DNA from: Pisolithus tinctorius
Lineage: Eukaryota > Basidiomycota > Agaricomycetes > Boletales > Pisolithaceae
Assembly (NCBI GenBank): GCA_024663395.1
Contig: JANFAH010000031.1
Span: 186,001-250,000 of the forward strand
DNA length: 64,000 nucleotides
Direction of reading: 5' to 3'
Shown: piece after piece, positions 1,793-41,159 of the stretch
Numbering within the stretch: position 1 is the stretch's first letter
Layout of the letters: each line of letters begins with the position of its first letter
Translations under genes and position numbers: made by a program
Notes under the pieces: model-generated
Database searches by the model: none
Seen by the model: the letters and a program-made list of their open reading frames with translations, nothing else
Told to the model about the DNA's origin: nothing

Positions 1793-2568
1793 GGCGCCTA
1801 GATGGAGGGAAATGGAAGGTCTTTGGTTCGCCTGCTTCAATTGGATGATGATACTAGGCCAGGGTATCATATGTCAGGTGATCAAGAGTGAAATCGAATG
1901 AAATCCCGTTCTGTCTCGTAGTAATGACTGACCACAGTGGGTGGGCGAAGGTCCCAAATGTATGAGATACTGCATAAGCGAGTAATGGAATCTGGATATT
2001 GCTCCTGGGGGGGCCTCTGGATGGAGCAGCGCGCACTGAATAAAGTGATTTTGTCAATGCACGACATGCAAGCCGAATGCAAAGCCCGCATAGTGCGACC
2101 GTTTCCCCTCTGATGCCATCTGCTGTCTTATGGTAGTTACTGAATGCCTCGTGCAGAAGCTTGAAATTGCGGAGCTAGAACAGGTTATTTTATGCGACCC
2201 GCAGTTGGTACAATTCACCTTGAACTCACTTCTACAATCATGTTGAGCTTGGAATTCCTACAGACGATAGAGGCACGTGCCGAGGGCATGTAAGACATAT
2301 AATACATGTAAAAGTGGCGAGCACACTCGGAACAGAGGAAAAGAAAAGAAAGAGAATTGGCAACGCTACGTGTCTCCAGAAAAGTATTTAGTGTCGCACT
2401 GAAGGGTTGGTATGACGTTGCATGAGACAATGAAAAAGTCTGGCAGGGCCGTACGAGACGAGTAGTAACCAAGAAAATCAAGGTAACGATGGTATGTTTG
2501 TAGAGGCGCGAAGTGGAAGTGCTTGACATTGAGGGATCTGCCTTGATCCCAAGCTTGGCACGCAATTG
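1793..2568. other. Intergenic, convergent 3' ends of DUF2235 copies 1 and 2
   Basis: No gene is supported here. The part next to copy 2 (about 2400-2568) resembles the 3' flank of copy 3 (about 9070-9211), sharing blocks such as ATATGACGTTGCATG-like sequence and AAAATCAAGGTAACG. The duplication that produced these paralogues therefore included downstream DNA. Confidence 0.6.
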
Positions 2569-4410
2569 TTAATCCATCCATATTGGTTCAACCTTAAGTT
2601 TCGCTCTCGGAAAATATTTCCCTTCCGGAAGTGCGTCTGCTTCCATCCGGATCTTGACCGATCGATGTATCTTTAGGCCCCGCCGTTGATTGGGGATATG
2701 GCGTCCCCTACCCATGTTCACCCTGAGGTCAAATCAAGAGAAATTCAGGCCAGTTCAGCTCACGGACTCCCAAACGGAAGACGAGAGTTACACACTTGAT
2801 AATCTTGGCCCACATGTCATCCTCTCTCTGGTAGCGCTGCTCTTGGGGCAGCATTTCGAGTATCCACCAATACGGCGTAATCATGAGTTGATCGTACATG
2901 GGGCTGAGCGCATCATAGAGATCCTCCATTTCCTCGCTCACAAATTTGCCGTCAGGATCACACTGGATTACTGCATGGTCATCACAAGGTGCGTTAGGGT
3001 CGGCGTTTGCAGGGCTGTTATAAATGGGCGGTGGACGGCAAACCACGTGAGGGTACAATGTTGAAGGGTCCATGCCAATCTGCTGGAACATCGAGCGGTG
3101 GAAGAGAATTCCCACTTCGGCTTTGAAAATCTCTCGAATCATCCACCGGAGAGGGATACGTGCTAGACTGTTTCGAGTACCATTCTTGACGGAACCACCA
3201 CCGACGTCTGAAACAGAGTTACGAATATTAAGACCATGTCAATTTCTAGCCTGTTCGAGCTTACCGCAGTGACATCCTGCAAACCATACTTCGTCGGAAT
3301 CAGTTTGTAGGGTTGAATGAGTATAGCGACGCTTTTCCCCTTCCCGGACGCCAAGCGCGTTTTCGGCGGCTGTGGACCGATTGTAGATGTTCGGCTCGAA
3401 GCGCCTGTACAGAGATTCAGATATCTAAGCATTAGCATATCGTAAACATCCGTCGAGTACATACACACGGTGTTCATCAAGTGCGAGAGCATGCCTGAAG
3501 TAGCGGATCATGGTGTTCGATCTTGTGAAAGGCAGCCTGCGAGGAATGATGCCCACAGACTTAACAGTATCCCTATTCGAAGCACCCACATGCCAAGAAG
3601 TTAGTGGAACCAAACCCTACGACGTCCCAATTAGTTCAAGAAGCTTACCAAACCCCCACGAATTCGACATCAACGTCGATAGAAAACCCCTTCTTGAGTG
3701 CCGTACTCTGCTTCCAGCCTTCTTCATCATCTTTGCGATACATTTTGTATGCAAACAGAAGATGCTGGTGGTTGCAGCGTGGTAAGAGGCCCACTTTGTG
3801 AAGCCTACAGTGGGGCTAAGCAAGTTCTGGCATTTTGCACCCTACGAAAGCCTTACATGCCCGCCAGCGCGCGCGCGGTGTAGGCGCCTGTGGAAAATCC
3901 AAACAGACATATCCTATTCCCAACCTCATCTGTACAGTTGACGTATCGAAGTCATGCGGAGATGTGAGAAAAGCTCACAATTTTGCATCAAGAACTCGTA
4001 ACCACCTGTCAAAAGCAAACGTAGTCGTTAGCGCCGCAACGAGAGGGGGATGCGGAAGCTCTCCGGCATACCCAAAATGTGAGCATCGAGGTCCTTCCCC
4101 TTCACCGTCAGGGGCATCCCGGCCTTATATTGCGCCGGACATGAATGGTAATAAACGCAGGTCGAACGTGACCAAGCCTACCTGGTAGTACACGACTTGC
4201 TGAGAGGGGTCATCCTTTTTCAACATATCGAATAACTGAACGACGTTCGAGTTCTAGCGGCGAGTGGAAGTCAACAAGCTTTGTGGAACGAACAGGACGG
4301 CGACCACCCACATCTTCGTGGAACTGGTTATATGTGCCATCAAAGCAGAGCACGAGAGTGCGATGGGCGTGCGCAGGGGGAATCACGTCGTCCGAAGACT
4401 TCGACATCAT
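2569..4410 (-). CDS. DUF2235 hydrolase, copy 2
   Basis: This is a paralogue of the other two DUF2235 genes with the same intron positions. It reads from ATG at 4410 to TAA at 2571-2569. The start MMSKSSDDVIPPAHAHRTLV leads into LVLCFDGTYNQF, whose FDGT is the N-terminal DUF2235 signature. The nucleophile elbow is GFSTGAYTARALAG (about 3850-3900). Removing the conserved GT-AG introns keeps every exon in frame. Two differences stand out. The N-terminus lacks the roughly 39-residue leader of copy 3. The exon after the second intron is reduced to 17 codons (AGMPLTVKGKDLDAHIL), against 36 in copy 3. The protein may be a shortened functional paralogue or an early pseudogene; there is no stop codon to decide. 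Confidence 0.8.
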
Positions 4411-4441
4411 GATAATGGAACCCTAAGCTAGGCCCGTCAGT

Positions 4442-4484
4442 AACGCTAAGCGCTCAAAACTCGCCATTTTGAGCGCTTAGTGTT
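4442..4484. repeat. Perfect-stem inverted repeat upstream of HET gene and DUF2235 copy 2
   Basis: The sequence CTAAGCGCTCAAAA, a 7-nt loop, then TTTTGAGCGCTTAG forms a 14-bp perfect stem. It extends to 18 bp with one mismatch (4442-4459 and 4467-4484). It lies in the divergent interval between DUF2235 copy 2 (-) and the HET gene (+). It could be a cruciform or regulatory palindrome, or the fused ends of an excised or collapsed inverted-repeat element. The palindrome is seen directly; its role is not known. Confidence 0.75.
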
Positions 4485-4778
4485 TGCCAGGTGTGCATGC
4501 TGTAATTAGTAGCGTGAGCACACTGACAACGTTACGTGGTTAACGAAGGCGACCGAATAACCTACTTCCCGTGATGTGACATGATCTGTGTCGCCCTGCA
4601 ACGAGGCTTGAGTTGAGGTTTGTTTCAAGTCTTCCACTGTCCTTCGACCAGAAGCATATAAGCTACCCATCGCATCTGAAGACACCACCTTACAGTCTTA
4701 GGTACCCGAAGAAGTACGTGCAATGACCTAGACTAAACGTCGCCCCAGTGCTGAGCTGTTTGTCCACCTCTTAAGGAG

Positions 4779-6545
4779 ATGCGGCTATTGGATGTAGACG
4801 CCGTTCTCGACCGGGAAAAGGACATCCAACGAGCTGATCCCAACGTCGAGGTTCTGAAAGAAGCCGATAGCAAGAGTACAAGTTATGCGATACTCTCACA
4901 TCGCTGGGGAACCGAGGTCAGTTATGAAGAGATGATAGGGCTAATGGAGATGGACGACGGAAAGAGGGAGAAGGTTAGAAACCGTGATGGCTACAAGAAG
5001 ATCATCAAGAGCTGCGAGAAAGCTATGAGCGATGGCCACAAGTTCTTGTGGGTTGATACATGTTGTATCAACAAACAAAGCAGCGCCGAGCTATCAGAGG
5101 CCATCAATTCGATGTATCAGTGGTATCGAGACGCGCAGGTGTGCTATGCATACCTCCATGACATTGACGAGCCAGCCTTTCCTGCTGAACCAGACTATGG
5201 CAAGTTCAATTCTTCCAACGGTTGGCCGGAGTGGTTCTTGCGGGGCTGGACGCTCCAGGAACTCATCGCTCCGAAAGAAGTCCAGTTCTTCAACAGGGGC
5301 TGGATGTGTATTGGTGACAAGCGGAATCTGGCACAGAAGTTAGAGCGCATCACACAAATTCCTGACCGTGTGCTAAGGGGTGGTCTGGTGTCAGCATCTT
5401 CCAGTGTCGCCCAAATTATGTCGTGGGCAGCTGACCGGAAGACAACGCGAGTGGAAGATCGGGCGTATTCGTTGTTAGGGTTGTTCGGGGTGAGCATGCC
5501 GATGTTGTATGGAGAGGGGGAGAGGGCATTCCGACGACTGCAACTGGAAATCATCCGGGAATCCAACGATTGTAGCATATTTGCATGGGATCCCTATGCA
5601 AGGGTGCCGCGGTATGGCAGCGTCCTTGCAGATGACCCGAGCTACTTCAGGGCTTGTCGCTACATCCAGAAGGACCCTGATACATCATTCGTCGACAAGT
5701 TGATCATGTATATCGACAAACACAAACTCGGCCGCCTCAAGAACGAAGCCGAATCGCGCAAAGATGCCAAAAAACTTTCTGTTTTCCTCGCTACCAACGC
5801 AGGTATCCAGATTTGCTTGCCCGTCATACCTTATTCCGAACCCAATCCCGTGCCCTATGAATTTCGTTATCTCGACTCTTCCAGGCCCACCACCCTGAAG
5901 GCTATACTGGCATGTAGCGACCAACATGGAGAACTAATCACAATCGATTTAGCCTCCCGTGGATCTAGCTTCGACAGAACTCTTAGCGATAACGAGCTCA
6001 AACAGACATCCCCAGAGTTCATGGAACTCTATCTTACACATCATCAAGTTGACGAGCCAGCCTGTGGTCTTACGCTCGTCGACGCGAATGCGTCGCACTG
6101 TGGTTTCATACGCTGTGGCACCTTCCCTCGCGAGACGACCGGCAATGCTTTCACCCTTTCGTCTCGCGCGAGCGATCTCATCCTCATAATCTATGCCAAC
6201 TACAGTGCCAAATCTCGTTTTGCAGTTGGGCTTGGAAAACACTTTGGCCGGGAATGGATGCACGTCACTTGTGATGAATGCGTTGCAAATCAACAGGACG
6301 ACTGCAAACCATGGTCGAGCTTTGCTGAGAAAGCATATGACATGATGTGGAGTGCACGGGCACGACTTGCCCAGAAGTATCACAGCGACAAGCTGCACGC
6401 CCACCTTTCCCAATCTATTTGGGCTGCAACGGTTGTTTGGGAAACTGACCTTGTGACGGTAGACATTAAAAAATGTGCTGGTTGTTGTGTTGGACCACAT
6501 GAGTGGACGGTTGGTTCTTTCGTCTGCATACACGTGCGGGTCTAA
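4779..6545 (+). CDS. HET-domain (heterokaryon incompatibility) protein
   Basis: A 588-codon open frame without an obvious intron starts at MRLLDVDAVLDRE and ends in TAA. Residues 1-150 carry the HET domain blocks in order: YAILSHRWG, KIIKSCEKA, FLWVDTCCINKQSSAELSEA, and MYQWYRDAQVCYAYL. Then come WFLRGWTLQELIAPK, RVEDRAYSLLGLFGVSMPML and YGEGERAFRRLQLEIIRESND, the usual end of the conserved part. HET proteins trigger cell death when unlike hyphae fuse, and many fungal genomes hold large families whose partners are unknown. The C-terminal half (about 270-588) shows no domain I recognise. The reading frame is intact and CpG-rich, unlike the repeat block to the right, which suggests a live gene. 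No incompatibility role is shown by the sequence itself. Confidence 0.9.
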   Translation: MRLLDVDAVLDREKDIQRADPNVEVLKEADSKSTSYAILSHRWGTEVSYEEMIGLMEMDDGKREKVRNRDGYKKIIKSCEKAMSDGHKFLWVDTCCINKQSSAELSEAINSMYQWYRDAQVCYAYLHDIDEPAFPAEPDYGKFNSSNGWPEWFLRGWTLQELIAPKEVQFFNRGWMCIGDKRNLAQKLERITQIPDRVLRGGLVSASSSVAQIMSWAADRKTTRVEDRAYSLLGLFGVSMPMLYGEGERAFRRLQLEIIRESNDCSIFAWDPYARVPRYGSVLADDPSYFRACRYIQKDPDTSFVDKLIMYIDKHKLGRLKNEAESRKDAKKLSVFLATNAGIQICLPVIPYSEPNPVPYEFRYLDSSRPTTLKAILACSDQHGELITIDLASRGSSFDRTLSDNELKQTSPEFMELYLTHHQVDEPACGLTLVDANASHCGFIRCGTFPRETTGNAFTLSSRASDLILIIYANYSAKSRFAVGLGKHFGREWMHVTCDECVANQQDDCKPWSSFAEKAYDMMWSARARLAQKYHSDKLHAHLSQSIWAATVVWETDLVTVDIKKCAGCCVGPHEWTVGSFVCIHVRV

Positions 6546-7640
6546 CTATCCATGTGGCCCTAGATTAATCATGCATTTCATTCGAAACTGGATGGAACAA
6601 GTCGGCAGGTTTGGCAGGACGAGTCAGCTTCCATGGAGAGAAGGAAGCAATTTGAGGATATCCGGTGAGCTCACTGCTGCAGAGCGCTATGTGGTGTCTC
6701 TGAAGCTACGTTCCGGAGAATAGGAAGCGCTTTTACACCCTAGTGAACATGGTACCCATCTCCTATCATCTTTACTCAAGTAGCTAATCATGTGAGTTGC
6801 AGCATCAACTTACAGGAACCGAAGTTCATCGCAGTCATGGGGTGCGTTGAGGAACTGCATGAAATCTACAAGCACATACTGATTACGGCGACAGAACAGC
6901 CAGATGGCGGATGAAGCAATCACGTCCCTCTCAAATATGTTTGGGCTCAAGGACTTGACAAATTATGTGCGCATTCTTTCTTTCGACACCTCAACCTGCT
7001 CACCCTCGAAGTATAGGTCGGCGAGATAACATTCTTCAAAAAGCTCCCCCTTATGGTGGGAACTAAGCCAGCCGGTGAAGGTGCTGCAGGCGTGGCAGAA
7101 GGTTAGCCTGCCACATTGAATATACTCGTCTACAAAGCTAAATTTTTCAGTCCCCGGAGACGGTTTACAATCATGCGCACCGAAATCGTCGCCGGGGGCT
7201 CTGGTGGCGATAGGTAATCCACCCAAACTCAGGCAACAATCAATAACCATACAGGACCCACGCCTTGAGGTAGCGTTACCTCTTTTACTCAAGGAGTGCC
7301 AGACTCTTGGCATGTGGTATCGCACATCGAGCCGGAATTCTACTACAAAGCAAAAAATAAAGCACGAGGTGAGGTGCATATCGCAAACTCTGGGTGCTGG
7401 GGTAAGTGTTCCCATCAATCGAAAAGAATTGGGGTAACACTAGTTACAAAGATACTTCAGCATATCAGTATGGCCTTCACGTGTGGGCACTTGTGAGTAT
7501 TCCACCTAGGTCATCTCGTTGTAGTACAATTTATTGTGCATTGATCCTAGATGTATTGATTACGACGGGTCAGTACCATCCCTTTTGATATCCAGTACTC
7601 CAAGTCTCGAACACTACATAGGCAACTCAGCACTGGTTCT
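6546..7640. other. No supported gene
   Basis: About 1.1 kb between the HET gene and the decayed ORF at 7644. Several short open frames occur on both strands, the longest being 151 codons on the minus strand at 6963-7418. None has a recognisable motif, consistent codon pattern or paralogue in the window. Confidence 0.5.
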
Positions 7641-7643
7641 ATA

Positions 7644-8549
7644 TTGCAAGAGATAAATGCACTCCAAACGAAACTCGATGCAACAGAGAACGAAGCTGAA
7701 CAACGAGTACTGGAGGAGGACATCACGGGAAAGGCAGGGAAAGCATCCGGTTGCTATCTTTTGAGACTAATAACGCGGGTGTGTACAGATCCTGTGGTTC
7801 TGTTGGCATGGGATCTGCTTAGAAGTGCACGAGCTATTATCAGAGGCAAGTTGACTCCGATTTCTGTCGATGGTATTTGACATCACTCAGGTCTTGAACT
7901 ACATTCGGAAAGCAGGAGAGGTGTATGTAAGTGGTAACGTGAGCGCCGCAGCGTTCATCGTAATCATTGTCACTAGGGTTTACTCAAGATTGGACAAATT
8001 ATTGAACAAGTCATGCCAGACTTGGATGGCGACCAAGCTCACTTGCAACGGTAGGCGACACCATTCGGTATATAATGTTGATACGAATAGCTGAACTATA
8101 CCGGGCCAGCATCATGGCTGATGCAAGAGCAGGCATGTCGAAGCATCAGTTGTGGCTTGCTGCGACAGCTCCGCAGCACACCAACTCGCGAGATGAAACT
8201 ATTTCTAGGGACAAACCCACTCGAAACACGGAGGAAACCAACCTGGGTACGAGCTCCCAAGTGTCCCCTACATCAGCGGATTTGTGAATTCTGGGCGCTG
8301 GCAAATGTACTTTTGGCTTTACCCGAGCGAGTTCGAGGCGTTCACGAGGATCACAGTGGCGTTGATGGGAATCGCGTAGTCACCGCATACACGTTGGTTC
8401 CTCAATGTAACCAGTCTTCTGTAACGATATCCGATGCTTTGAACATGAGAACAATCCCTATGGCTATGAACAACTGTGCAACATACATATACCATTCATA
8501 CGGGAATGCAATCTCCGCAAGCGCAGGTGACGGGCCACAAACACGATAG
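7644..8549 (+). pseudogene. Decayed or multi-exon gene of unknown family
   Basis: Coding-like stretches occur in successive plus-strand frames. Around 7644-7870 there is EINALQTKLDATENEAEQ followed by DPVVLLAWDLL. Around 7870-8050 there is DITQVLNYIRKAGEVYVSG and a leucine-rich RLDKLL stretch. At 8085-8280 there is ELYRASIMADARAGMS, and about 8230-8380 there is SGFVNSGRWQMYFWLYPSEF. The frame changes could be unannotated introns or frameshifts; a stop interrupts near 8384. I do not recognise the family. The order of the blocks suggests one former protein with an N-terminal helical part and a C-terminal Trp/Tyr-rich part. This remains tentative. Confidence 0.35.
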
Positions 8550-9211
8550 GTGGGTTGAGATCTGAGGTACTAAATGGCCAATCATTCTCTCGAGGACAGG
8601 CTCTGCATAGACCGGTGGGTATATTTCCCATTTTACTTTCGCTATGGACCCGTAAAATGCGGGTCAGCTGGCCTAAAGCTATCTACAAGAGTATGTAATA
8701 CTCCCGCGGGTCACCTGGTGCAACTATTTGAAATGGTGGAGCTCATAGAGGTGCGGTCCCGAAAAAGCACAGGTTAGCGGCACTATACTTACCCAACTCA
8801 CCTAACCTGAAATCATACGGTAACTCCGCAACTTCGTTGATCGGTCTTGAAAACCTTAAAGAAAAGGAGACAGGAACACGTGCCAAAGCATGTAAGATTC
8901 ATAGAACACGCAACTGACTGGCAAGGGAGGCGGGCATAATTGCGCTCGCGGCGCGGTACGTACTATGGTACATTCCGGCAAAAAAAGGTGGACGAAGAAT
9001 TACCAATACTAAATGTATTCAGTAAATGATGCTTGAGCGTAGAGGGCAGCATGTAGTGTTGCTCTATACGTTTGATATGACGTTGCATGGTACAGAGTGA
9101 GAAGGCGCGGGAGGAGTAACCAAAAAAAAAATCAAGGTAACGCTGGCAAGTCTCCGGAGGCACGAAGTGATAGAAATGAGGTTCGTCTTGCTTCCATAGT
9201 TGGCGTAACCT
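8550..9211. other. 3' flank of DUF2235 copy 3, no gene seen
   Basis: No coding region is supported. The sequence from about 9070 to 9211 matches the 3' flank of copy 2, so it belongs to the duplicated block. Confidence 0.5.
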
Positions 9212-11358
9212 TTAATCCACCCATGTGGGCGCAACCTTGATCTTCGCCTTCGGCCAGTATTTCCCTTCCGCAAGTTTGTCTGCTTCCATCCGGATCTTGA
9301 CCGATCGATGTATCCTCAGGGTCTCTCGGTTGGGGACATGGCGTCCCTTACCCATGTTTATCCTGAGGTCGGATCAAAAGAAATTCAAACTGGTTCAGTA
9401 TGCGGACTCCCAAGCGGATGACGAGAGTTACACACTTGATATCCTTGACCCAAGTGTCATCCTCATCTCGCTGGTAGTGCTGCTTTTGCGGCAGCATTTC
9501 GAGTATCCACCAATATCGCGCAATCTTGAGTTGATCGTAGATGGGGCTGAGCGCATCGTCGAGATCCTCCATTTCCTCGCTCACAAATTTGCCATCGGGA
9601 TCACACTGGATTGCTGCATCGTCATCATCGCACGGTACGCCGGGGTCGGCGTTTGTCGGGCTGTTAAAGATAGCTGGTGGGCGGGGGGTCACGTGGGGGT
9701 ACAATGTTGAAGGGTCCATGCCAATCTGCTGGAACATCGAGCGGTGGAAGAGAATGCCTATTTCGGTTTTGAAAATCTCTCGAATCATCCAGCGGAGAGG
9801 GATACGTGCTAAACTGTTTCGAGTACCATTCTTGACGGAACCGCCACCAACGTCTGGAGCGGAGTTGCAAGTATTAAGACCATGTCAATTCCTGGACTGT
9901 TCGAGCTTACCGCAGTGACATCCTGCGAACCATACTTCGTCGAAATCGGTCTGCAGGATTGACTCGGTGTAGCGACGCTCCAGATCCTGAAGACTTGATT
10001 CCTGATGGTGTCCATTCGAGCTGCTTTTCTCATGCAGAAGCTTGTCGTGGGGAATATGAATGGAGGAAAACTTCTTGGTGCTTCGAGGCATTTCCCCTTT
10101 CTGGACGCCAAGTTTTTTGTCGGCGTCTGTGGACCGATTGTAGAAGTTCGGCATAAAGCGCCTGTGAAGGATTCAGATATATGAACATTAGCCTACCGCA
10201 AACGTCAGTTGGGTACATACACTCGGTGTTCATCAAGTGCGAGAGCATGTCTGAAGTAGCGAATCTTGTTGTTTGCTCTTGTGAAAGGCAGCCTGCGAGG
10301 GATGACGCCCACAGAGTTAACAGTATCCCTGTCCAAAGCACCCACATGATACAGAAGTCAGTGGAACCAAACCTCATGTCCTAATTAGTTCAAGAAGCTT
10401 ACCAAACCCCCACGAATTCGACATCAACGTCGATAGAAAACGCCTTCTTAAATGCCTTACTTTGTTCCCAGCCTTCATCATCATCCTTGCTATACATTTT
10501 GTACGCGAACGGAACCTGCTGGTGGTTGCAGCGTGGTAAGAGACCCACTTTGTGAAGCCTGTAGTGGGACTAAGCAAGTGTTCCGGTATACAACACTGTT
10601 ACGGAAGCCTTACATGCCAGCCAGCGCACGGGCAGTGTAGGCGCCTCGCGAAAACCCAAACAGACATATCCTATCTCCTGCCTCATCTGTAGGGTCGAGG
10701 TATCAATCACCATTGTTAGTATCAAATGAAGAAATGGAAATGTCGAAAAAAAAACTCACAGTTTTGCATCAAGAACTCGTAGCCACCTGCAGAAAACACG
10801 TGTTTGTTAGGCGCCGCGATAAGAGGATGCGGGTACCGGTGGCGTACCCATGACGTGAGCATCCAGGTTGTTCCCCACCATCGCATCGATGGTCTTGGAA
10901 AGCTTGGCGTAAAAGGGCGTGGCGATTTGAGGGATAGTGTATGTACCTATCCCCGCCTTATGTTGCGCCAGTCGTGAGTGGTAATGGACTCCGCCCCAAT
11001 GTGAGCAAGCGCACCTGATAGTACACCATTTGTTGGGAGGGATCATCCTTTTTCAGCATCGAGAAAAACTGAACGATGTTCGAGTTCTAGCGGTAAGCGG
11101 AGGTCAGTAAGTTGTGCAAGAGGATCAAAGACAACGACCACCTACATCAGCATCGAACTGGTCGCCTGTACCATCAAAGCAGAGCACGAGAGTGCGACAG
11201 GCATGTGCGGGGGGAATCACGTCGTCCGAACATTCTGACATCTTGATGGTCGAACCACCAGCAGTGGGAGAACGGGCTACGTTTGGGAAGTCGGGATAGG
11301 CGTCAGCGAAATGGGATGCATTGAGAAACTGAGAGGGTGGGGAAGAGTTGTCCGACAT
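9212..11358 (-). CDS. DUF2235 hydrolase, copy 3 (complete)
   Basis: This is the best-preserved member of the trio. Ten inferred exons on the minus strand (11358-11146, 11086-11015, 10956-10848, 10786-10760, 10686-10614, 10558-10403, 10328-10221, 10161-9911, 9853-9436, 9362-9212) sum to 526 codons in frame, a 525-residue protein. Every intron is GT-AG. The N-terminus starts MSDNSSPPSQFL and reaches RTLVLCFDGTGDQFD, the DUF2235 entry motif. The nucleophile elbow is ICLFGFSRGAYTARALAG with GxSxG, followed by VIPRRLPFTR, IRYFRHALALDEH, FDEVWFAGCHC, DVGGGSVKNG and FQQIGMDPSTLYPHV. The domain is known from Tle1-like phospholipases; fungal members are mostly uncharacterised. No signal peptide is evident. 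Confidence 0.88.
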
Positions 11359-12328
11359 GCCTGACGGCTACCTAGCTGGCAGTTGCACGTTGGCAGAGCA
11401 GAACCCCTGTGAACTCTTCTTACTTATATAAGGCGCGGATGATATGAGATATGAATAGCATCCGGCTTCCCTTGCGACCCGAATAACGTCTATCAAGCTC
11501 AAGGGCCAAACGTGTGCTTAGGTTCAGGCGCATCATGTAATTTCTCTTGTCCTGTGTCACTTGCCGTCTCACGTGCGTCGCTCCACCGGCTTCAAATCTT
11601 TGTCTCCCCCGAAAGGAACGAGGGTCAAAGGAATGAATCGTATCAGTGTGATTGGTGGCCATACGTGAAAATGAACTCACCTGGTGGAGCCTTGGAAGGC
11701 AATGCAGTCTTCTCTTCGGGAACTTGGACTTCCGGTTATTGGCAATTGCACCACCCGACACTACAGATTGGCACCCACATGCAAGAGGGCCACCCAGTCG
11801 ATCGGATCCTGTGTGTTCATAAGCGGTTCGTCGTGAGATGAACAATTGATTGACAGACAATAATCCAGCCGTACATATTATTATGCGTATTATTACAAGT
11901 GGGGATTCCTATCAATAGTATTCGGTTAGTCTCGTTCCCAGCCATTCTGGGGATCTACGGGAGCTTCCGTGCGGTGTTTGAAAAAACATCGACGGAGATG
12001 TCCCCACATCAGGGAAACAGCTACGCGACGCGGCTGTTAACAGCTCTTTTGCACTTGAGCGAGCCTTCTCATTGGCCAACAAGTGTCTTAGCGAGTCTTA
12101 CGACAAGTCACTTCTAAACGGAGGCAGGTATAACCTGCTCACTCCCTCGGGTAGTTTTGCAGATGCAGAACGTCTAGTGCAGTTCGTCCGATGAACCCCC
12201 CATGTGTCACACCTTCATAAGCACATGATCTTAAAATGTCAAAGTAGAGAGTAAAATGCATCTGAGTTGTCATGTATGTATGTGACACAACTGTTTGCCT
12301 GGATCTACATTGCTTTCTTGGGGTATGA
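11359..12328. other. Intergenic with end of an inverted repeat pair
   Basis: No gene is supported; the 146-codon minus frame at 11420-11860 lacks any recognisable motif. Positions 11927-12006 form the left member of an inverted pair with 20042-20121. A second block near 12170-12220 (GCAGTTCGTCCGATGAACCC) also recurs inverted near 20010-20035. These mark the outer border of an older element that contains the helicase relic. Confidence 0.6.
11927..12006 (+). repeat. CpG-retaining member of an 80-bp inverted repeat pair
   Basis: The sequence from TAGTCTCGTTCCC to GATGTCCCCA is the inverted copy of 20042-20121. The two differ at six positions, and every one is a CG here and TG or CA there. In the other copy the outer ends, CATTCTGGGG and CCCCAGAATG, are themselves inverted repeats, so this may be a small hairpin MITE; this copy keeps only one of those ends. 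Confidence 0.8.
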
Positions 12329-12560
12329 ATGCCCCCTGTCCAGTCAGTTCTGTTGAACACTGAACATGAGCATGCCAGAGGAGCCAAGTGTCTTGCTATT
12401 GCACAAACTGAGGGTACTCAAAAGTGTCAATACGATTCAAAGAAGACACAGCAAAAGCTCTCTGAGCTTGTACAGAAGCACTTCCATGGCCACAGGCCAT
12501 ATGAGTGGCAACTTGACACTGCTGAAGCCTTGCTCTTGGGTTTGGACAGCATAGTCATTG
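12329..12560 (+). pseudogene. RecQ-like helicase relic, N-terminal piece
   Basis: The open frame leads to a helicase Q-motif-like block (PYEWQLDTAEALLLGLDSI) and stops just before the P-loop, where Ty3 element A is inserted. If the element and one copy of its CATTG target duplication are removed, the frame runs directly into the Walker A motif AGTGAGKT at 19049. That is direct evidence that the two halves were one gene. RecQ-family helicases unwind DNA 3' to 5'. Given the repeat context, this copy may have been cargo of an older mobile element rather than a host repair gene. Confidence 0.75.
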
Positions 12561-12936
12561 TGTTACGCTCGACCGAAGTCAAGACATAGGGAGAGCTCAA
12601 ACACAGACTGTGGTTTCTACTGAGCAAATGGCTGCAGTAACCTCTGTAAACGACAGAGGATTTAGGGCAACACCGGTAAGAGTGGTCCTTGTTAGGGACA
12701 CTAAGGGCAAAGTTCTGAGAACACTGCATATAATTGAGCAGCTCAAGTCTGGGTTTCCAGGACTTGAGCCGACAGTCTAAATACTACATGGGAACGGACC
12801 ATGAGGCATCCACATGTATCGAGGTAACTATGCCATTGGTTGAACAACGACAACACATGTCCTATGCAATGAGCGAGTAACGCTAGTGGTGGGAATAGGG
12901 AGCCGTCGGATCAAAGAGAAGACGGCTCAAAAGGGG
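12561..12936 (-). repeat. 3' LTR of Ty3 element A, truncated
   Basis: This matches 18599-18974 without gaps. The first 69 bp of the LTR (in element orientation) are missing, and at 12937 the sequence switches to the pol C-terminal coding region after LGH. The pol frame therefore reads on into the LTR and stops at 12883. Confidence 0.9.
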
Positions 12937-15900
12937 GTGGCCAAGGTGGCGACAGACGTAACACGCTTGACGATAGCATGGATCAGATGGAGTAAGAGGT
13001 CTATTGAACTCAGTCATGGCGTTCAGCACAGGGGTCGGTGGCAACTGTGCAAGGGTTTTGATGATATTTAGCGTGTAGTCGAGTTCTGCACGGGAGACGC
13101 CAAAGGCGGTCTCGGGGTCTACTTCAGATGGAGAGTCGTGAGACTCGCAGGGTTGAGGGTTAGGGCCTGATAAGCAACAGGCATGGGGTCTGTTGGCTCT
13201 ACGGAGAGAGCAGGACGAGTGGGAGGACGACGATGGCGATGATGCCAGAGGGGAGGTTGACATGGAGGAAACCAGAGGGGAGGTTGCAGTCGAGGGTCTT
13301 CTAGACCCAGGAGGAGGGGGAGCAATTAGCGTAGGGTGCTGATGGACGTTATAGATGAGGTCTGCGCCTCCAAGGACATCGAAAAGTCTAAGTAAAAGGG
13401 GAACCTGCTGAATGGCGATTTCATTCAGGATGGTATGGGCGGGGGACAGAAGGGGGTTCTGGCAGTTGACATAGTGGGAAAGTTCTTCAAGCCGAAGGGC
13501 TTGGATGGTGGCGTGGTATACAAGGTCAAGTGGAGAGTCCTCATCCACTTCATAATAGATGGTGCCGAGAACCGCAGGGTCGGCGATGAAGAGTCGGTAC
13601 GAGGCGATCATCTGATCGCTAGCGGGTTGTCGTTGCCGATGGGCAAACGGAGTGTGGCAGCGAGAAGGTTCTCGGGGGTAAGTGTAGTGATGAGGAGGCA
13701 TTTCAAGAGTAATGTTTCTGATGGTATGGGTGGAACATCGAGTGGGTTGTTTCTGAGAGGGAAAGTCTTTTGGGAAGCATCTTTTATAAGCGGAGAGCAT
13801 ATCATCCGCATGTTCAAGGTGTGACTCTTTCTGCCACGAGTTTTCGGAAGAGGGGTAGCCTTTCCACCTGATTAAAAAGGCGTGTCCGTGGCCAGATTTC
13901 TTGTGGCCAACTATCGCCTCAACCTCGTACTCTTCCTCCTCGTTGATAAGGTCAGGCAGAGGAGCTGGGAAGTTCGGTCCGTGAATGTCATTTTCGTGAT
14001 AGGGTGATAGGAGAGAAGCGTGGAAGACGTTATGAATCTTCCATTGTGAGGGAATCGTGAGGCAATACATAATGGGAGATAGGACGTCGGAGATAGTGAA
14101 GGGTCCTTCTCACTTGGGTGCAAGCTTCCTATTTTCATAGGAGCATTTCAAATTGCATGCTTCTAGCCAAACCTTATCACCTTTCTGGAATGGGGTGAAG
14201 GGTCGTGACAAGCGGTCTTTCATCGTTTTTCTTGCTAGGTCGTGGGCTGCTAGGGCCTCCTCTCTAGCTTTTTGGAGTTCGTCGAGTCTAGACTCGGCGG
14301 CGGGAAGATGGGTTTCCGCAATCAGGGACGGAAGTGGTTTCGGCTCATATCTGTACATGAGATAGAACGGAGATTGATGGGTGACAGAGTGTGGGCGGTG
14401 ATTGTGTGCGAATTCTGCCATGGGGAGGTTGTTCACCCATGAGGTGGGGTCGTTTTGGCAGAAGATGCGGAGATAGGTCTCGACCTCTTGGTTTACTCGT
14501 TCTGTCTCTCCATCAGTTTGTGGGTGATATGCTGTTGACAAGGCAAGAGAGTATCCCAAAAGGGAAGCAAGTTCTTTTGCAAAGGCGGAGGCAAACTGAG
14601 GGCCTCGATCTGATATGATTTTGTCATACAACCTGAAGCGGGAGTAGACTTTCTTGAAAAACAACACCGCAATATCAGCAGCAGAGGCAGTTTTCTTGGT
14701 TGGTGTTAAGATTACCCCCTTTGTAAGCCCATGGTCTACCACGACCAAAAGGGAATCATAGCCATTAGAAACAGGCAGGTCGGTGACCAGATCGCAAGAG
14801 ATCTGTTGGAAGGGGTGGGTCGAGGTGGAGGGAATAGGCATAAGGGGTGGCATTGTTGGGTGCGTGTTAACCTTGTTTTGCTGGCATGTAGCACAGCCTT
14901 CGACATATTTCCGGATGAAAGACGCAAGTCCAGGCCACCAGAACTCGGATGAAATGAGTTGTCGGGTCTTCAGGACACCAGGGTGTCCGGCAGAGGGGTG
15001 GTCATGGTGGTTGGACACGACAGTCCGTCGGAGGACAGGGTCATCGGGGATATACACCCGATCTTTGTAAAGTAGTATGCCGTTGTCGAATTTCCAGTCA
15101 GAGAGGTGAGACTTAAACGGAAGTGGCATATCAATGTTTTCGATGGCCCGAAGCGCTGTCTGGACAACAGGGTCTTTCATGGAAGACGACCCGACTTTCT
15201 GGGTGAGATTTGCGTCAATGAGATTGATGAACAAGGTTTGCGGGAGGAGGGTGACTCCTTTATTGTCATTGTCATCGTCAGGGATGTGGTCAGGTCGGTG
15301 GGAGAGTGCATAAGGTGCAGCCAGGTCTTTTCCTGGGACATGTTCTAGTTGCAGATCGAAGTCTGCGAGGTCAAGGAGCCAGCGGGCCTGGCGACGATTT
15401 AGATTCTGAGGTGACTTGAAGTATGTCAGATTTTTGTGGTCTGTGAAGACCCTGACAGGGAAAGGGGATCCATGGAGATAGTGTCTCCAGGTCTTCAAGC
15501 CTCTGATGACCCCTAGTAACTCTCTGTCGAAGATGTCGTAGTTTCTCTCTGCAGGATTGAACGACTGAGATATGAAAGCACAAGGTTGCCATTGACCATT
15601 TGAGTCTTCCTGGAGGAGGATACCTCCAGTTGCATACTTGGATGCATTGGTAGAGATTGCGAATGGTCGAGAAATGTCGGGCATTCAGAGGGTCGGTTGT
15701 GCCATGAATATCCTTTTCAGGAGTTCAAAAGTGGTCTGGCATTTCTTTGACCATTCCCAAGTGACCATTTTCTTGGTTAGATCAATAAGGGGTCAGGCGA
15801 TATCAGAGTAATAGGGGACGAATCTCCTATAGAAGTTTGCAAATCCTAAAAAGGATCGCACGTCTTTGACCTTTTTTGGGACAGGCCATTCAGCAATGCC

Positions 15901-17403
15901 CTGGACCTTAATGGGATCCATGGCGACGGTGTTTTCTTTAATGATCATCCCTAGGTACTCGACCTCGGTCAGATCAAAGTGACATTTTTCCAGTTTCAGG
16001 GGGAGAGAGAGTTCTCTCATCCTTTCGAGGACACGATGGGTTCTTTGTTTGTGTTCTTCGGGATCGGTAGAGAAAATGAGTAGGTCATCCATATAGATGA
16101 CTAACCATCCTTCAGCGATCATATCTCTGAAAGAGTCGTTCATGAATCGCTGGAAGGTGGCGGGAGAATTGCACAGCCCAAAGAACATGACGGTTGGTTC
16201 GAAGAGACCTTTGTGTGTGATGAAAGCGGCCTTCCATTGGTCCCCTTCTTTAATCCGAACATTGTTGTAGCCGGATCTGACATCCATCTTTGTGAAGATA
16301 GAGGCTCCTTTCAGTTTGTCCACGAGGTCCGAGATGAGGGGAAGGGGATATGCATCCTTCACAGTATTCTTGTTCAGGTATCTGTAGTCCTGGCAGGGAT
16401 GTAGGGAACCATCTTTCTTCCCAACGAAGAAGAAGGGGGCGGCTTTGGGAGACTTCGAGGGATGGATCTTTCCTTCTTGAAGGTTTTCTTCAATAAACTT
16501 TTCGGCGGACTCTTGTTCTGAGGGAGAGAGTGGATAAGCTTTGGCCACCTTGGGGACGAAGTCCTCTACAAGGTTTATGGCATGATCGTATGGTCGTGAT
16601 GGGGGTAAGACCCCATCGGATGGTTTCTCGAAAACCGAGGCGAAGTCTTCGTAGTCCTTAGGGAGGACAGCCTTCGGTTTCTTTCTGTGTTCTTCTTGGG
16701 CTAATTCCGTAGCCGTGGTGATTTTTCGAAGAAGACTATTATTGGGGTTGATCTTCTTGGCTTCTTCGACGAGTTTCCCAACCGACATCACGAAGTGCAC
16801 TCGGATGGTTTCATCTTCTGGTTCTTCATAGTCCATGAACTTGTTTATCCCTTTCTTTTCGGCAGGGGATACAAGGTTCATGGTTGGTTCTTCGATGGCA
16901 ATGGAAAAGATGTTGCATCTCAACTCTTTTGATCTATCGGTTTTCTCGTCGATAGACAATGTGCCCATTCTCCAGTCTACAACTGGGTTGTTTTCTTGAA
17001 GCCAGGGGAGACCCAGAATGATGTTTTCCGTTCCACAATTGATGACATGGAAAAAGGCCTGGTGGACAAGTCCTTCAACCTTAAAATAGAGAGTGGCGGA
17101 AAACAGTATTCTTCCTTTTGAGTTCTGGGTTCCATCGGCGTTTTTAGCGAGGATGGGTTCGGCGAGGCGTTGAGTGGGGATTCGGTGTTTTCACACAAAA
17201 CCCCAATCAATACAAGAGATTTCCGCTCTGGAGTCAACTAGAGCGGTAGTGTTGATGACTTTCAGGGTAGTTTCTGATGCATAAAGGGAGATGGGGATCT
17301 GCATAGTACGTTCTGGTGTAGACGTTACAAGTACAGGTGCAACAGAAACTAAACTGTCCTTAGTTTGGGGAACATCTGGCGTCAACGCAGAGTTCCCATT
17401 CAA
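12883..17403 (-). pseudogene. pol: pol of Ty3 element A (PR-RT-RH-IN-chromodomain)
   Basis: The domains run in order on the minus strand. Protease has ALVDSRAEISCI, with the catalytic DSG changed to DSR (about 17230). RT carries [16 protein letters not shown] and VIYMDDLLIF. RNase H starts FAISTNASKYATGG. Integrase has a zinc-binding HH-CC region (CATCQQNK), the first Asp in SCDLVTDLP intact, and SDRGPQF. The chromodomain is near HAFLIRWKGYPSSENSWQ. A Cys/His-rich tail begins CYVCRHLGH. In-frame stops split it near 17190, 15797, 15685 and 14109; most replace an Arg codon of relatives (CGA to TGA). The C-terminus is fused to LTR sequence by deletion. Confidence 0.92.
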
Positions 17404-18545
17404 AAATCCTTTCCAAGGGCTCTAGCAATGTTCACCAGAGCGATGGACAGACCAGCGATTTTTTCTTCATCATTGCTTTCTTCTACCTCCACAATTTTGC
17501 AGATTTTCTTTACTTTCTTCTGGGGAGTTTTCCCCTTGTCTGGACATTCTCGGGAGAGATGTCCCTTGTTTCCACAACCGAAACATCTTCCTTCTTTGAT
17601 GTGACGGTCTCGTTCTTCTTTGGAGAGTCTCACTCCATCCACGTCCATAGCATTTGGATCTTTTTCTTCAGCAAAATTGTTCCTAGGGTGGAACATTTTC
17701 TTTTCCTTCTTTGTGGAGAATTCGTTCACCTTCCTCCATTTGGTGTCGAACTTTTGCGCTTGGGTGTACCCCTCAGTAATCTTGGTGGGAGTGGTTTCCA
17801 TCATGTGAATCCTGTTTGCGATGAAAGGTTTGAGTCCTTGTGAGAAGAACTTGATCAAGGCGACATCTTCTGTGATGGTAGAGTTGGCGGCAGCGGTTCG
17901 GAAATCAGTGATATATTGCTCCACCGAATCTTTTTGTTTCAGGGTCCGCAGTTTGGCGATTGCAGTTCCAGCGGTGTCAGCGGAGGTGAACAATTCCTTA
18001 AAATTCTTCACAAAATCAGTGAAGGTTCCAAAGCTCGGATTGGTTTTTTCCAGAGCTATTTTCTGGTAGGTGGTGGCCCAAGAATGGGTGACGCCTTTCT
18101 TCATGTATGACAAGGTGTAGACCACCTTCTTGGTGTCAGTGTCATACAGTTCTTTGTTGACCAAGAGGTAGGTCTGTACGGAGTACAGCCAGCTCATGGC
18201 ATTCTTTTGGTCTCCATCAAAATCAGTTGGAGCACCAATCTTTAGTTCGGTGGGTTTGACTCCAGAGACGGCAGTCGTTCCCTTTGACGATGAACCAGAC
18301 ATTGTATTTGGTGGTGGGGTCGGGGGAGTAGGAAGTGTGGCGGGTACTGGTGGGATAGGTGTACCAAGTGAAGCGAGGGACTGGGTGAAGAGGTTCGAGA
18401 GGATTCCAGAGGTAAAGCCTCTATCTGGTTGTTTGGGTTCGTTGGAGGAGGTGTCTGTGACAGTGCTCTCCTGTTCTTCGTCAGATGACAATTCTTCACG
18501 AGTGGGTCACAATGGCACCCAATGTCGGTTGTTTCGGGGGTTCAT
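17400..18545 (-). pseudogene. gag: gag of Ty3 element A
   Basis: The structural capsid/nucleocapsid protein of the element. The ATG at 18545 starts MNPRNNRHWVPL, then a TGA at 18509-18507 stands where the relative at 52481 has CGA, so the copy is nonfunctional at the start. Downstream the frame is open for 363 codons. It has a Pro-rich N-terminal part, a retrotransposon gag capsid block (MSWLYSVQTYLLVNKELYD, SYMKKGVTHSWA) and one zinc knuckle, CFGCGNKGHLSREC, in the last 60 residues. The tail is Lys-rich and acidic. It ends in a stop at 17400, and pol follows in another frame. Confidence 0.9.
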
Positions 18546-18585
18546 GGTGGTGCACTAAGCAGTGACCGTTTTGGCCAAAGGCTGT

Positions 18586-18596
18586 AGACTTGAGCT
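18586..18596 (-). other. Predicted self-primer binding site of element A
   Basis: AGCTCAAGTCT (minus strand) lies 2 nt inside the 5' LTR and is the exact reverse complement of AGACTTGAGCT inside the LTR (18778-18788). No tRNA 3'-end complement starting with TGG is visible at the usual place. The layout matches self-priming as known from Tf1/sushi elements. Confidence 0.7.
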
Positions 18597-18598
18597 TT

Positions 18599-19043
18599 TG
18601 TTATGCTCAACTGAAGTCAAGACATAGGGAGAGCTCAAACACAGACTGTGGTTTCTACTGAGCAAACGGCTGCAGTAACCTCTGTAAACGACAGAGGATT
18701 TAGGGCAACACCGGTAAGAGTGGTCCTTGTTAGGGACACTAAGGGCGAAGTTCTGAGAACACTGCATATAATTGAGCAGCTCAAGTCTGGGTTTCCAGCA
18801 CTTGAGCCGACAGTCTAAATACTACATGGGAACAGACCATGAGGCATCTGCATGTATCGAGGTAACTACACCATTGGTTGAACAATGACAACACATGTCC
18901 TATGCAACGAGCGAGTAACGCTAGTGGTGGGAATAGGGAGCTGTCGGATCAAAGAGAAGACGGCTCAAAAGGGGAATTATGTCCAATGGATCAAAAGCAA
19001 GGTAAACATACAGTAAAAGAAAAGTCAGGGGTGAAACGTAACA
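18599..19043 (-). repeat. 5' LTR of Ty3 element A (445 bp)
   Basis: Read on the minus strand it begins TGTTACGTTTCACC and ends with ATAACA. It contains a TATA-like TATTTAG about 35 nt upstream of AGACTTGAGCT, the predicted start of R. Over the 376 bp shared with the 3' LTR there are 14 differences and no indels; 13 lie at CpG-derived sites. Confidence 0.9.
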
Positions 19044-19048
19044 CATTG

Positions 19049-20059
19049 CTGGTACAGGGGCAGGGAAGACACTTCCCTTTGTAATGCCTCTTCACTTCAA
19101 CAAGAAGAGCCACATTTATCATTATTTCTCCACTGAAGGCTTTGCAGCGAGACCAGGTACTCTCACATACCAGTTTTCTATCAACTGACAAACACCTGCA
19201 TAGAAACATCGGTTTCAGAAAATGGGTGTGTCTGCCATTGATGTCAATGGCGAGACATGGTCCCCTAAGCTCAGACAGGTCAGCAGAATTCCAGTTTTTC
19301 CAGTGGTCACACTAAACTATTCATCAGGACTTCAAGAACAATAAATACCAAGCCATATTGATTGGGCCAGAGATGTGCCTCCAACATGAAGGGTTTCGCG
19401 AGTTACTGAAGTCCCCTGATTTCAGTAATGACCTTGTCAGCATTGTGGTTGACAAGGCTCACTGTATCTCACAGTGGGGGGGCGACTTCCGTGTTGCATA
19501 TAGTAGCCTAGGTGATGTGCACTCGTATGTGCCTACAAACATACCTATCCTTGCAACTTCAGCAACACTGGCTCCTGCTGCCCTGAAAGAGGTGCAGCAC
19601 AAGCTGCAGATGGATCCCATCAACACATTCTTTCTCAATCTGGGAAATGACTGGCCAAACATTACACCATCAGTCATCAAGATGCGTAACAGTAGTGACT
19701 ATGCTGCCTTACTTCCACTGATTGGTCAGGATATCCAAACCGGACCCAACCTTCCAAAGACTATAATATTTACAAACTCAATCCAGAAGACCTTGGAAAT
19801 CCACAGGTTTCTAGGAGAACACCTTCCACCGACATGTGGCCCTTACCTGGATATATTTCATGCACTTCGCAGCACTGCTTCAAAGAGGGAGGCACTCAAA
19901 TACTTCAGAAAAGGGAAAACCAGGGTCCTGATAGCGACAGAGGCAGCAGGGATGGTAAGATATCATCTAGTTGAATGTCATGTGTCATGGTGTGACATGT
20001 TATGCATGGGGGGTTCATCGGACGAACTGCACCAGACATTCTGGGGACATCTCTGTTGA
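19049..20059 (+). pseudogene. RecQ-like helicase relic, main part
   Basis: This continues the relic from 12329-12560. Walker A AGTGAGKT lies at 19049-19072, then a frame break in the segment 19080-19350. The longest frame is 19358-20059: VDKAHCISQWGGDFR is the RecQ motif II region, LATSATLAPAALKEVQ is motif III, KTIIFTNSIQKTLEI is motif IV, and RVLIATEAAGM is motif V. The catalytic DEAH box reads DKAH, so ATP hydrolysis would be lost. After AAGM a GTAAGA donor-like sequence suggests an intron before the piece lost downstream. No RQC or HRDC domain is seen. Confidence 0.85.
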
Positions 20060-20671: not shown

Positions 20672-20921
20672 TGTAGAAATATCTGTAGGCTACCTCAGTA
20701 GTGAACAAACTACTAAGTGTATTACTGTACCTGTAGGCTACTACAGGATGTCAGTATAGTAGAATATTTGTATTATAAACAGACTTACCCTCAGTAGTGA
20801 ACAAACTACTGAGGGAATACTAGTAGAAGATACTACAAGTATGTGCGCTATTTCAGCTTATGTAAGCAGCCAAAACATCGCACAGTGGTCAAGTACCACA
20901 GGGGCACTTTATGTTCCAACA
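20672..20921. mobile_element. Solo LTR, small family (250 bp)
   Basis: It begins TGTAGAAATATC, ends TGTTCCAACA, and is flanked by the 5-bp direct repeat ATGGG (20667-20671 and 20922-20926). A second copy with its own different target duplication lies at 56945-57200. It contains two hairpins, CCTCAGTAGT...ACTACTaag (about 20693-20718) and CCCTCAGTAGT...ACTACTGAGGG (20788-20815). TG...CA ends, short terminal inverted repeats and 5-bp duplications fit a solo LTR left by LTR-LTR recombination. Confidence 0.85.
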
Positions 20922-36483: not shown

Positions 36484-36836
36484 TCATAGCATACACAAAA
36501 TCTCACAGATGCTTTGATGTAAATCAGTATTAACAGCAAAATAAAGCTCATCCATCAGGTCACCTGGAGAACTGCCATCATCCAACATCTCTGTGGAGGG
36601 GATAACAAGGGTGTGAGCCATAGCAACAATCTCACTCATCACAGCATTATTGTGTTTAGAAATGGATGCATGATAGTCATGAGTGCTGGTGCCCCAATTC
36701 TGCTCAGAGAATGCCAGCACACTCAATGACTCCTTCCTGGACACTTTGTTGAGCTTGAGCAGAGTTTTTGCCATTGCCCTCATACCATGGGTACTCATTT
36801 GATCGTCAACTTGTACCTCCCCCCTTTGGAATAGCC
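36484..36836 (-). pseudogene. C-terminal part of an unknown ORF, split by Ty3 element D
   Basis: The minus-strand frame contains MSTHGMRAMAKTLLKLNK and FSEQNWGTSTHDY. It is probably the C-terminal continuation of the ORF at 43285-44405, separated from it by element D, since CAAAT is duplicated at both edges. I recall similar proteins only as uncharacterised families in mushroom genomes, so no function is given. Confidence 0.55.
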
Positions 36837-36840
36837 AAAT

Positions 36841-37239
36841 TGAAGCAACTAAAGATGAGAGTCTTCTCAGCTATCACTTCAAACCAGAGAGCTTGGGAGT
36901 AGAACCTGTTGAATGAGGATAAGGCTCAAAATGAACTAGATTAGAGAAACCGGCTATGACAAACAACAGGACTTATATACTGCCTTACTGTTTGTATGTA
37001 CTGCCACGAGAGAACGTTCTGGAAAGAAGTAAACAAAAGAGAGAACTATGCTATTGGATGAATGTGAACATGCATTAGTAACGAGGCATGGCCTTACTAA
37101 GTATCATGTAAGCATGAAAGAGTAAACAAAAGGAAAAGTCTGAGATGACTAAGCATCCCTAACACATAACCCTAACCAGAGGGTGGATATATATAGGCAA
37201 CTAGGAAATGTGGAAGTGAAAAGTCTACCGGTCATTACA
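36841..37239 (-). repeat. 3' LTR of element D (399 bp)
   Basis: Pairs with 42898-43284. It contains TATATAAG on the minus strand and CTACCGGTCATTACA at its plus-strand right end. It carries about 12 extra bases (GCTATCACTTCA-like) absent from the other LTR. Confidence 0.92.
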
Positions 37240-37378
37240 CTATCCCCTCCTAAGGTTCAACTTCCAGGCAAGACCAAATAGGATGGATGGTGGTAAATGG
37301 TTCCAGCATGGGTGTAAACAAGCTATCAAAGCTTTCTGATGAGAGGAGAGATAATTTACAGGGTGCCCCAGGGTGGGA

Positions 37379-41139: not shown

Positions 41140-41159
41140 TGCAGCTCCGATTCTTTTAA

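Follow-up and report, generated by a model that had tools for sequence, protein, structure and literature searches.

In a 64,000-nucleotide window on contig 31 of the genome of the ectomycorrhizal mushroom Pisolithus tinctorius, the two long terminal repeats (LTRs) of a Ty3/chromovirus retrotransposon, here called element A (12561-19043), differ almost exclusively at positions derived from CpG dinucleotides. The same pattern recurs in LTR pairs of its family elsewhere in the genome. Per site, all other positions change about 400 times more slowly, so that most of the divergence between LTRs records CpG decay and reaches a plateau when CpG is exhausted. Chronic deamination of resident copies of transposable elements (TEs) that would be methylated at CpG is probably the best explanation of this decay.

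CpG-derived differences between the LTRs of element A

The ungapped alignment of 12561-12936 with 18599-18974 contains 14 differences in 376 bases. Thirteen of them fall at 11 CpG-derived sites, two of which read TG in one LTR and CA in the other (12811-12812/18849-18850 and 12831-12832/18869-18870). The lone non-CpG difference is a G/C transversion (12761/18799). Assuming 42 of the 376 positions to be CpG-derived (21 sites), at least 13 of 14 differences would fall at CpG by chance with P ~5e-12. Direct alignment thus reproduces the counts of a first-pass annotation of this DNA, including the two TG-versus-CA places and a non-CpG divergence of 1 in 376; its 13 CpG differences stand, although they represent 11 sites and not 13 separate CpG sites. 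Likewise, its statement that element C, a relative at the end of the window, retains CG at one of the TG/CA sites is confirmed by a copy of CAATGGCGTAGTTACC at 57935.

The comparison ends at 12936 because a deletion removed the U3 start of the left (3') LTR together with adjoining internal DNA. This LTR is 69 bp shorter than the right one, and the 277 bp that should follow 12936, between LTR and internal sequence, are present in all five relatives examined and gone in element A.

CpG loss in LTR pairs across the family

The genome assembly (92.5 Mb, 221 contigs) was searched with the LTRs of element A and of its relative element B, which matched at least 40 and at least 41 places, respectively. 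Sixty of these became loci (L013-L072), and 20 further stretches were taken for sister LTRs. Identical 5-bp target site duplications (TSDs) on both sides defined 24 computed pairs, 23 of which, containing 38 of the 60 loci, were pooled; L037/L078 was dropped beforehand as a redundant assembly copy of L038/L079. The pair L052/L088, with zero CpG left, was kept in the counts and taken out of the rate ratio and the clock test. The 22 loci outside the pooled pairs comprise the redundant L037, six solo LTRs flanked by identical 5-mers (L017, L031, L046, L059, L065, and L066), L064, which is probably likewise a solo LTR, L043 (element B) and L047, whose sister LTRs are split, and loci left without a sister LTR among the stretches taken. 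Among the partner stretches, the LTR match was partial in L083 and absent in L073, L080, L081, L084, L085, L089, L090, and L091. The pooled pairs were selected by similarity to the A and B LTRs, neither at random nor by whole-genome alignment. The 5-mers flanking L064 are CATGC and TGTGC, as if a host CGTGC had mutated on opposite strands.

Tabulating mutations by context across the family, the check proposed by the first-pass annotation, was carried out on these 23 pairs, which include A. At 266 CpG sites both LTRs kept CpG, at 158 it was lost in one LTR, and 98 sites read TG/CA; only 39 non-CpG substitutions (24 transitions, 15 transversions) occur in 10,307 bp. Hence, 354 of the 393 LTR differences are CpG hits. 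Per site, CpG changed 418-fold faster than the rest (bootstrap 324-564). This ratio is 279 when limited to the 15 pairs with <60% CpG loss; grouped by erosion, it is 320 in weakly, 257 in moderately, and 484 in strongly eroded pairs, values based on 4, 7, and 24 non-CpG substitutions, respectively. As many as 93 of the 98 TG/CA sites show CG in at least one other copy, whereas sites with TG or CA common to both A LTRs, which served as comparison set, show CG elsewhere in only 14 of 51 cases. Changes are almost confined to CpG-to-TpG/CpA conversion, with both strands alike, as expected of methylation-linked deamination.

Element D, the window's member of a second chromodomain LTR family whose LTR has no match to that of A within the window, behaves in the same way. 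Its LTR pair kept one CpG, lost 10 in one LTR, and shows five TG/CA sites with one other substitution in 388 bp; a further pair of its family, L099/L100, has two kept, six single, and seven TG/CA sites with two other substitutions in 400 bp. Summed, the second family gives 3 kept, 16 single, and 12 double hits versus 3 other substitutions in 788 bp. Element B, kept out of the pool on account of its split LTR, points in the same direction as the pooled pairs: its LTR pieces contain four single and nine TG/CA sites versus two other substitutions in 464 bp. Within the 3' LTR of this element lies a 256-bp insertion (56945-57200) with a 96% identical copy at 20672-20921; because both copies retain the same two CpG amid very CpG-poor surroundings, the insertion is probably young. 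A similar tendency appears in an 888-bp direct repeat (45428-46315/49731-50620), with 21 TG/CA and 4 single CpG hits versus 24 other substitutions.

CpG loss is gradual, strand-symmetric, and clock-like

A model of independent loss with one fitted rate per pair predicts 264.4 sites kept, 161.1 lost in one LTR, and 97.2 TG/CA, in close agreement with the pooled counts. Adjacent hits lie on the same strand in 154 and on different strands in 159 cases (75 and 89 within 30 bp), so that the strand-run test for an active mutator is negative in the pooled LTR pairs. The products TG (190) and CA (164) are about equally frequent (P 0.18), and left and right LTRs are equally hit (chi2 14.1, 20 df). The hit fraction is 0.192 for ACG, 0.170 for CCG, 0.162 for GCG, and 0.132 for TCG (four-way P 0.058); a TpCpG preference is absent from the pooled pairs, in which TCG is hit least.

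Moreover, CpG loss tracks non-CpG substitutions across 22 pairs (rho 0.89). The scatter in the clock test (13.1) shows no excess over that simulated under proportionality (19.2, P 0.75), while an equal non-CpG expectation for all 22 pairs is rejected (P 0.0002). Loss is thus gradual, independent between sites, and linked to age, as methylation-linked deamination would have it, on the basis of few non-CpG substitutions (35 in the clock test). The number of CpG per LTR descends from 28 to 0 through many intermediate steps. In coding sequence, 16 of the best 150 reverse transcriptase (RT) matches (among 2198 candidates) have interior stops, all of them TGA, the stop that a CpG transition can create; two or more of these 16 seem to be redundant.

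Young copies and a duplicated gene region retain CpG

In 28 non-independent comparisons among eight young A-family LTRs, the CpG ratio is only 5.5. Recently transposed lineages thus kept their CpG, whereas resident copies lost it; the remaining differences between young LTRs may be reverse-transcription errors without CpG preference. The window holds an internal control in the form of a duplicated region of ~1.8 kb (Table 1), which belongs to a local cluster of genes on contig 31 that has its allelic counterpart on contig 3. Its two copies kept 73 CpG, with 48 single and 3 double hits versus 234 other substitutions in 1,831 bp, a ratio of 3.6. The corresponding ratio is 9 for two DNMT1-type methyltransferase loci compared with each other.

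The observed/expected CpG ratio (CpG o/e) falls from 0.80 (12001-12250) to 0.08 (12251-12500), so that the switch from gene-bearing to repeat DNA is sharp. Close to this boundary, a ~160-bp repeat (12007-12168) with at least 38 genome matches at 80-99% identity lies in a stretch with normal CpG; such short repeats may escape CpG loss or may be young. The counterpart of the gene cluster (window 1-12000) is located at G000:C3:4263864-4360462, with 99-100% identity in the query stretch, and in both allelic versions the shared flanking genes enclose a large block. The HET-type frame in this part of the window (4779-6545) is 98% identical to a P. tinctorius protein. On the repeat side, a nearly CpG-free stretch holds a large inverted repeat (24094-25464/25993-27379) with arms of ~1.4 kb, whose pieces are 89-95% complementary, and a 528-bp spacer.

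Allelic copies were considered as a second clock and discarded as uninformative, since seven pairs of contig stretches have zero substitutions in the main alignment (L001/L002, L037/L038, L053/L054, L065/L066, L069/L070, L078/L079, and L090/L091); the two DNMT1-type loci did differ. These substitution-free pairs indicate that the assembly holds redundant pieces and that copy counts are consequently inflated.

LTR divergence saturates as a measure of age

Using the rate of 1.05e-9 per site per year and the Kimura two-parameter (K2P) distance K, as applied to P. tinctorius in PMC5689174, element A is dated to 18.4 million years (My) from the raw alignment and to 1.4 My after masking of CpG. Over the pooled pairs, CpG inflates K 8.9-fold, which bears out the initial claim that ordinary LTR dating overestimates age; the CpG-masked ages of all pairs lie between 0 and 9 My. 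When CpG is fully lost, half of the sites are expected to read TG/CA, and raw K therefore plateaus near N/L, the number of CpG divided by LTR length. For these pairs, exhaustion of CpG alone corresponds to an apparent 21-41 My (mean 30.5). Accordingly, the eight pairs with >60% loss have raw ages of 28-45 My and masked ages of 1-9 My.

These values overlap with a published age profile. Raw K2P dating of 944 intact LTR elements from P. tinctorius gave a peak at 25-30 My, with most elements between 20 and 40 My, a profile termed 'intriguing' as old elements retain coding domains (PMC5689174). The authors note that this profile matches, roughly, the time at which ectomycorrhizal symbiosis arose in Boletales, and they caution that assembly gaps may hide young elements (PMC5689174). 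The terms 'CpG' and 'repeat-induced' do not occur in the main text of that paper. The published LTR burst falls in the age range of CpG saturation, and we strongly suspect that saturation shaped its dating; with 23 non-random pairs set against 944 elements from another assembly (71.0 Mb), this is a suspicion and not proof. The published dating and its link to symbiosis thereby become directly testable. If the true non-CpG rate were below 1.05e-9, masked ages would rise too, and raw K would remain a poor guide to age after exhaustion of CpG.

Methyltransferase and repair genes

A profile search with PF00145 identified four places in the genome at E values up to 0.01, all of either DNMT5 or DNMT1 type as we read them. 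On contig 6, the best match of the exons is a chain of 7r76 deposited as Rad8 (E 1.9e-73 and 2.8e-42), the DNMT5 of Cryptococcus. Exons on contig 3 match DNMT1 (E 2.7e-20), and a second locus on contig 59 is 98.6% identical to them. A third methyltransferase type (RID/Masc1) was not met by PF00145, in an exon-by-exon search that could miss RID. Judged by their sequences, CpG-type methyltransferase genes are thus present. Their absence had been named at the outset as an argument against deamination, and the DNMT1- and DNMT5-type exons answer this point. DNMT1 with an RFD domain and DNMT5 form the main basidiomycete set, linked to CG methylation, and fungal methylation is found preferentially in TEs (PMC7862722). 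In Ganoderma sinense, almost all TEs marked by repeat-induced point mutation (RIP) are methylated (PMC4457147).

Loss of uracil/thymine glycosylases was considered as a cause of the high CpG ratio and rejected. PF03167 gave no matches, a false negative, since the NCBIfam ung model found exons on contigs 2, 5, and 84, and the NCBIfam mug model a weak, TDG-like two-exon match. Furthermore, no MBD4-like enzyme emerged from the six HhH-GPD matches examined, which, read by eye, look MutY-, OGG1-, and Nth-like, with one unclear. The Nth-like HhH-GPD exon occurs at six places (contigs 17, 34, 51, and 194; L096-L098), an uncommon number for a gene of base-excision repair; three of the six were read by eye, and some perhaps lie on redundant contigs.

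Deamination of resident copies and competing explanations

Deamination of stably methylated copies predicts just such a loss in TEs: independent, strand-symmetric, clock-like, and restricted to CpG, in a genome that has CG-type methyltransferases. Element A would be one such resident copy. Once a copy of the family has inserted, the host DNMT1/DNMT5-type system would methylate its CpG on both strands, and each 5-methylcytosine (5mC) would deaminate to T slowly and independently, with poor repair. In each LTR, CpG turns into TG or CA with about equal chance, presumably by this chemistry, and opposite-strand hits in the two LTRs would leave the TG/CA pairs seen in the alignments. The earlier proposal of methylation-linked deamination rather than general decay is thus supported by the preponderance of CpG hits, with methylation as the presumed link.

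Several points weigh against this explanation. The CpG excess in mammals is ~10-fold, and a ratio of ~400 far above it calls for very weak T:G repair, unusually rare replication errors, or enzymatic help. Poor T:G repair, or a rate set by time rather than by divisions in an organism with few replication errors, would raise the ratio; the ung exons and the weak TDG-like match indicate that glycosylase repair is not simply missing. Moreover, there are only 39 non-CpG substitutions overall and 35 in the clock test, the ratio spreads from 257 to 484 between erosion classes and is soft in the most eroded pairs, which are near saturation, and the pairs were picked, non-randomly, for likeness to the A and B LTRs.

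More speculatively, and in our view with a limited chance of being correct, a CpG-specific mutator acting without RID in mushrooms of this kind could drive methylated resident TEs to TG/CA at ~400 times background, hitting each site and each strand on its own, via enzymatic or repair-blocked conversion of 5mC rather than chemistry alone, while the transmitted lineage, with its ratio of 5.5, escapes. Two clocks would in that case run in every LTR pair, one of them slow and the other, based on CpG, fast and recording the time since insertion; the 20-40 My expansion in the literature would correspond to saturation of the fast clock.

The main rival to deamination of methylated resident copies is a weak, CpG-directed process resembling RIP, in which every sexual cycle brings recognition of repeats and enzymatic mutation of some of their CpG, so that after many generations the end state is the same. 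The ~400-fold effect, its appearance in repeats, and claims in the literature of RIP, or of mutation resembling it, at CpG in Agaricomycetes (PMC4457147, PMC6980582, PMC4014442) speak for it. The pattern is unlike a RIP burst, and a weak process acting every sexual cycle would come to look alike over time. Nevertheless, the data disfavor it, and we regard it as unlikely: strand runs are absent (154/159), sites are hit independently and in a clock-like relation to other substitutions, and the gene-cluster duplication, 78-85% identical over ~1.8 kb, has normal CpG. In addition, the PF00145 search met only the DNMT5 and DNMT1 types, with the exon-wise reservation given above, and TCG has the lowest hit fraction (0.132 vs 0.162-0.192).

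Base-calling errors at methylated CpG are known from long reads in general, and the redundant pieces of this assembly would fit errors of base calling or assembly as the source of the differences. This is very improbable in view of the graded CpG numbers per LTR (28 to 0), the similar frequencies of TG and CA, three 2-kb steps without any CpG, and the restriction of interior stops to TGA in the RT matches examined; the seven redundant contig pairs also agree without substitution, though possibly because they derive from the same reads. Finally, ordinary decay or gene conversion between related copies, with the CpG excess a product of chance, could draw on the small numbers in element A alone and is already contradicted by the chance calculation for A and by the 23 pairs, and conversion from other lineages, given the ratio of only 5.5 between young elements, would have imported many non-CpG differences that are absent, so that we attach next to no weight to it.

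Structure of element A and features of the window

Element A has the composition of a Ty3/chromovirus, with a TG...CA LTR pair, a 5-bp TSD, gag followed by RT-RNase H-integrase, and a chromodomain (Table 1). Its coding capacity is not intact, as TGA stops split pol, and its 3' LTR carries the deletion described above. Joining the flanks of the element rebuilds an empty site at which a DEAD/helicase-type frame continues through, at its AGTGAGKT motif. The interrupted frame (12251-12560 and 19049-20059) is CpG-poor and perhaps a piece of an older repeat.

Table 1. Coordinates of element A, its CpG-derived TG/CA sites, and further features of the window.
Feature	Position	Strand	Remarks
Element A, Ty3/chromovirus retrotransposon	12561-19043	-	LTRs, TSD, gag, RT, RNase H-integrase, chromodomain
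Left (3') LTR of element A	12561-12936	-	Truncated at 12936 by deletion
Right (5') LTR of element A	18599-19043	-	Full length 445 bp, TG...CA ends
TSD CATTG, left copy	12556-12560		Next to element A
TSD CATTG, right copy	19044-19048		Next to element A
Element A, gag-like reading frame	17400-18491	-	Ty3_capsid and Retrotrans_gag above cut-off; zinc knuckle below cut-off
Element A, pol, reverse transcriptase part	15793-16968	-	
Element A, pol, RNase H and integrase part	14110-15684	-	rve match below cut-off
Element A, last pol frame with chromodomain	12883-14070	-	Chromovirus type
CpG-derived site	12811-12812		CA here, TG at 18849-18850; CG in 23 of 66 other family LTR copies
CpG-derived site	12831-12832		TG here, CA at 18869-18870; CG in 28 of 66 other family LTR copies and in element C
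Element B, A family	51970-57326 (ends approximate)	+	CpG o/e 0.09
Element C, A family	57761-64000 (start approximate, runs past window end)	+	CpG o/e 0.41
Element D, second chromodomain LTR family	36841-43284	-	TSD CAAAT at 36836-36840 and 43285-43289
Block with many old repeats	20001-58000		Each of nineteen 2-kb steps at CpG o/e 0.00-0.24; no CG at all in three
Duplicated region, first copy	2569-4422		Normal CpG, internal control; minus-strand frame with weak PF09994 match below cut-off
Duplicated region, second copy	9212-11256		78-85% identical to first copy
HET-type frame	4779-6545		

Comparison with known systems

A close parallel is the rust Austropuccinia psidii, in which CpG depletion of TEs is attributed to deamination of methylcytosine (PMC8063080). 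As in P. tinctorius, CpG loss from TEs grows with age, a classical RIP signature is lacking, methylation genes are present, and deamination is proposed. The rust belongs to another basidiomycete group than Pisolithus, and loss was assessed there by identity to the family consensus (PMC8063080), whereas the TSD-matched LTR pairs used here yield strand, independence, and rate ratio.

A C-to-T bias at CpG in repeats is shared with Ganoderma sinense (PMC4457147), Tricholoma matsutake (PMC6980582), and Rhizoctonia solani AG8 (PMC4014442). T. matsutake is said to be without rid and dim2 and to have masc2 (PMC6980582). In R. solani, genes are also hit, and G follows only ~40% of the C-to-T changes (PMC4014442); in P. 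tinctorius, by contrast, the duplicated gene region is spared and CpG accounts for 354 of 393 LTR differences. Amselem et al. 2015 associated the Masc2-type Dnmt1 with CpG mutation signatures in basidiomycetes (PMC4352252). The likeness to our case lies in a CpG signature with a class IIA Dnmt1, no RID, and a proposed methylation-based process; the species there are three other basidiomycetes (Microbotryum, Melampsora, and Puccinia), and LTR-pair rates are not among the results in the portions of that paper on which we draw (PMC4352252).

RIP of Neurospora crassa likewise inactivates repeats by C-to-T transitions, but prefers CpA and depends on RID (PMC4352252, PMC7862722). P. tinctorius differs in its CpG target, in the lack of a RID match in the exon-wise search, and in the sparing of the duplicated gene region. 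A CpA preference is not seen, all contexts together yielding only 24 other transitions in 10,307 bp, and RIP's indifference to whether a duplicate is TE or gene is not found at the one gene-cluster duplication of the window (ratio 3.6). The TpCpG hypermutation of Microbotryum, with T before the mutated CpG, also finds no counterpart in the P. tinctorius pairs.

CpG mutation of TEs in basidiomycetes and its link to Masc2-type Dnmt1 are therefore already known (PMC4352252, PMC6980582, PMC4457147, PMC8063080). Judged by titles and the openings of abstracts, none of the papers listed in literature searches was recognized as dealing with CpG saturation in the LTR dating of Pisolithus or other mushrooms. 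What LTR pairs add is a direct reading of the rate, strand symmetry, and clock-likeness of CpG decay, together with a testable correction of a published age profile.

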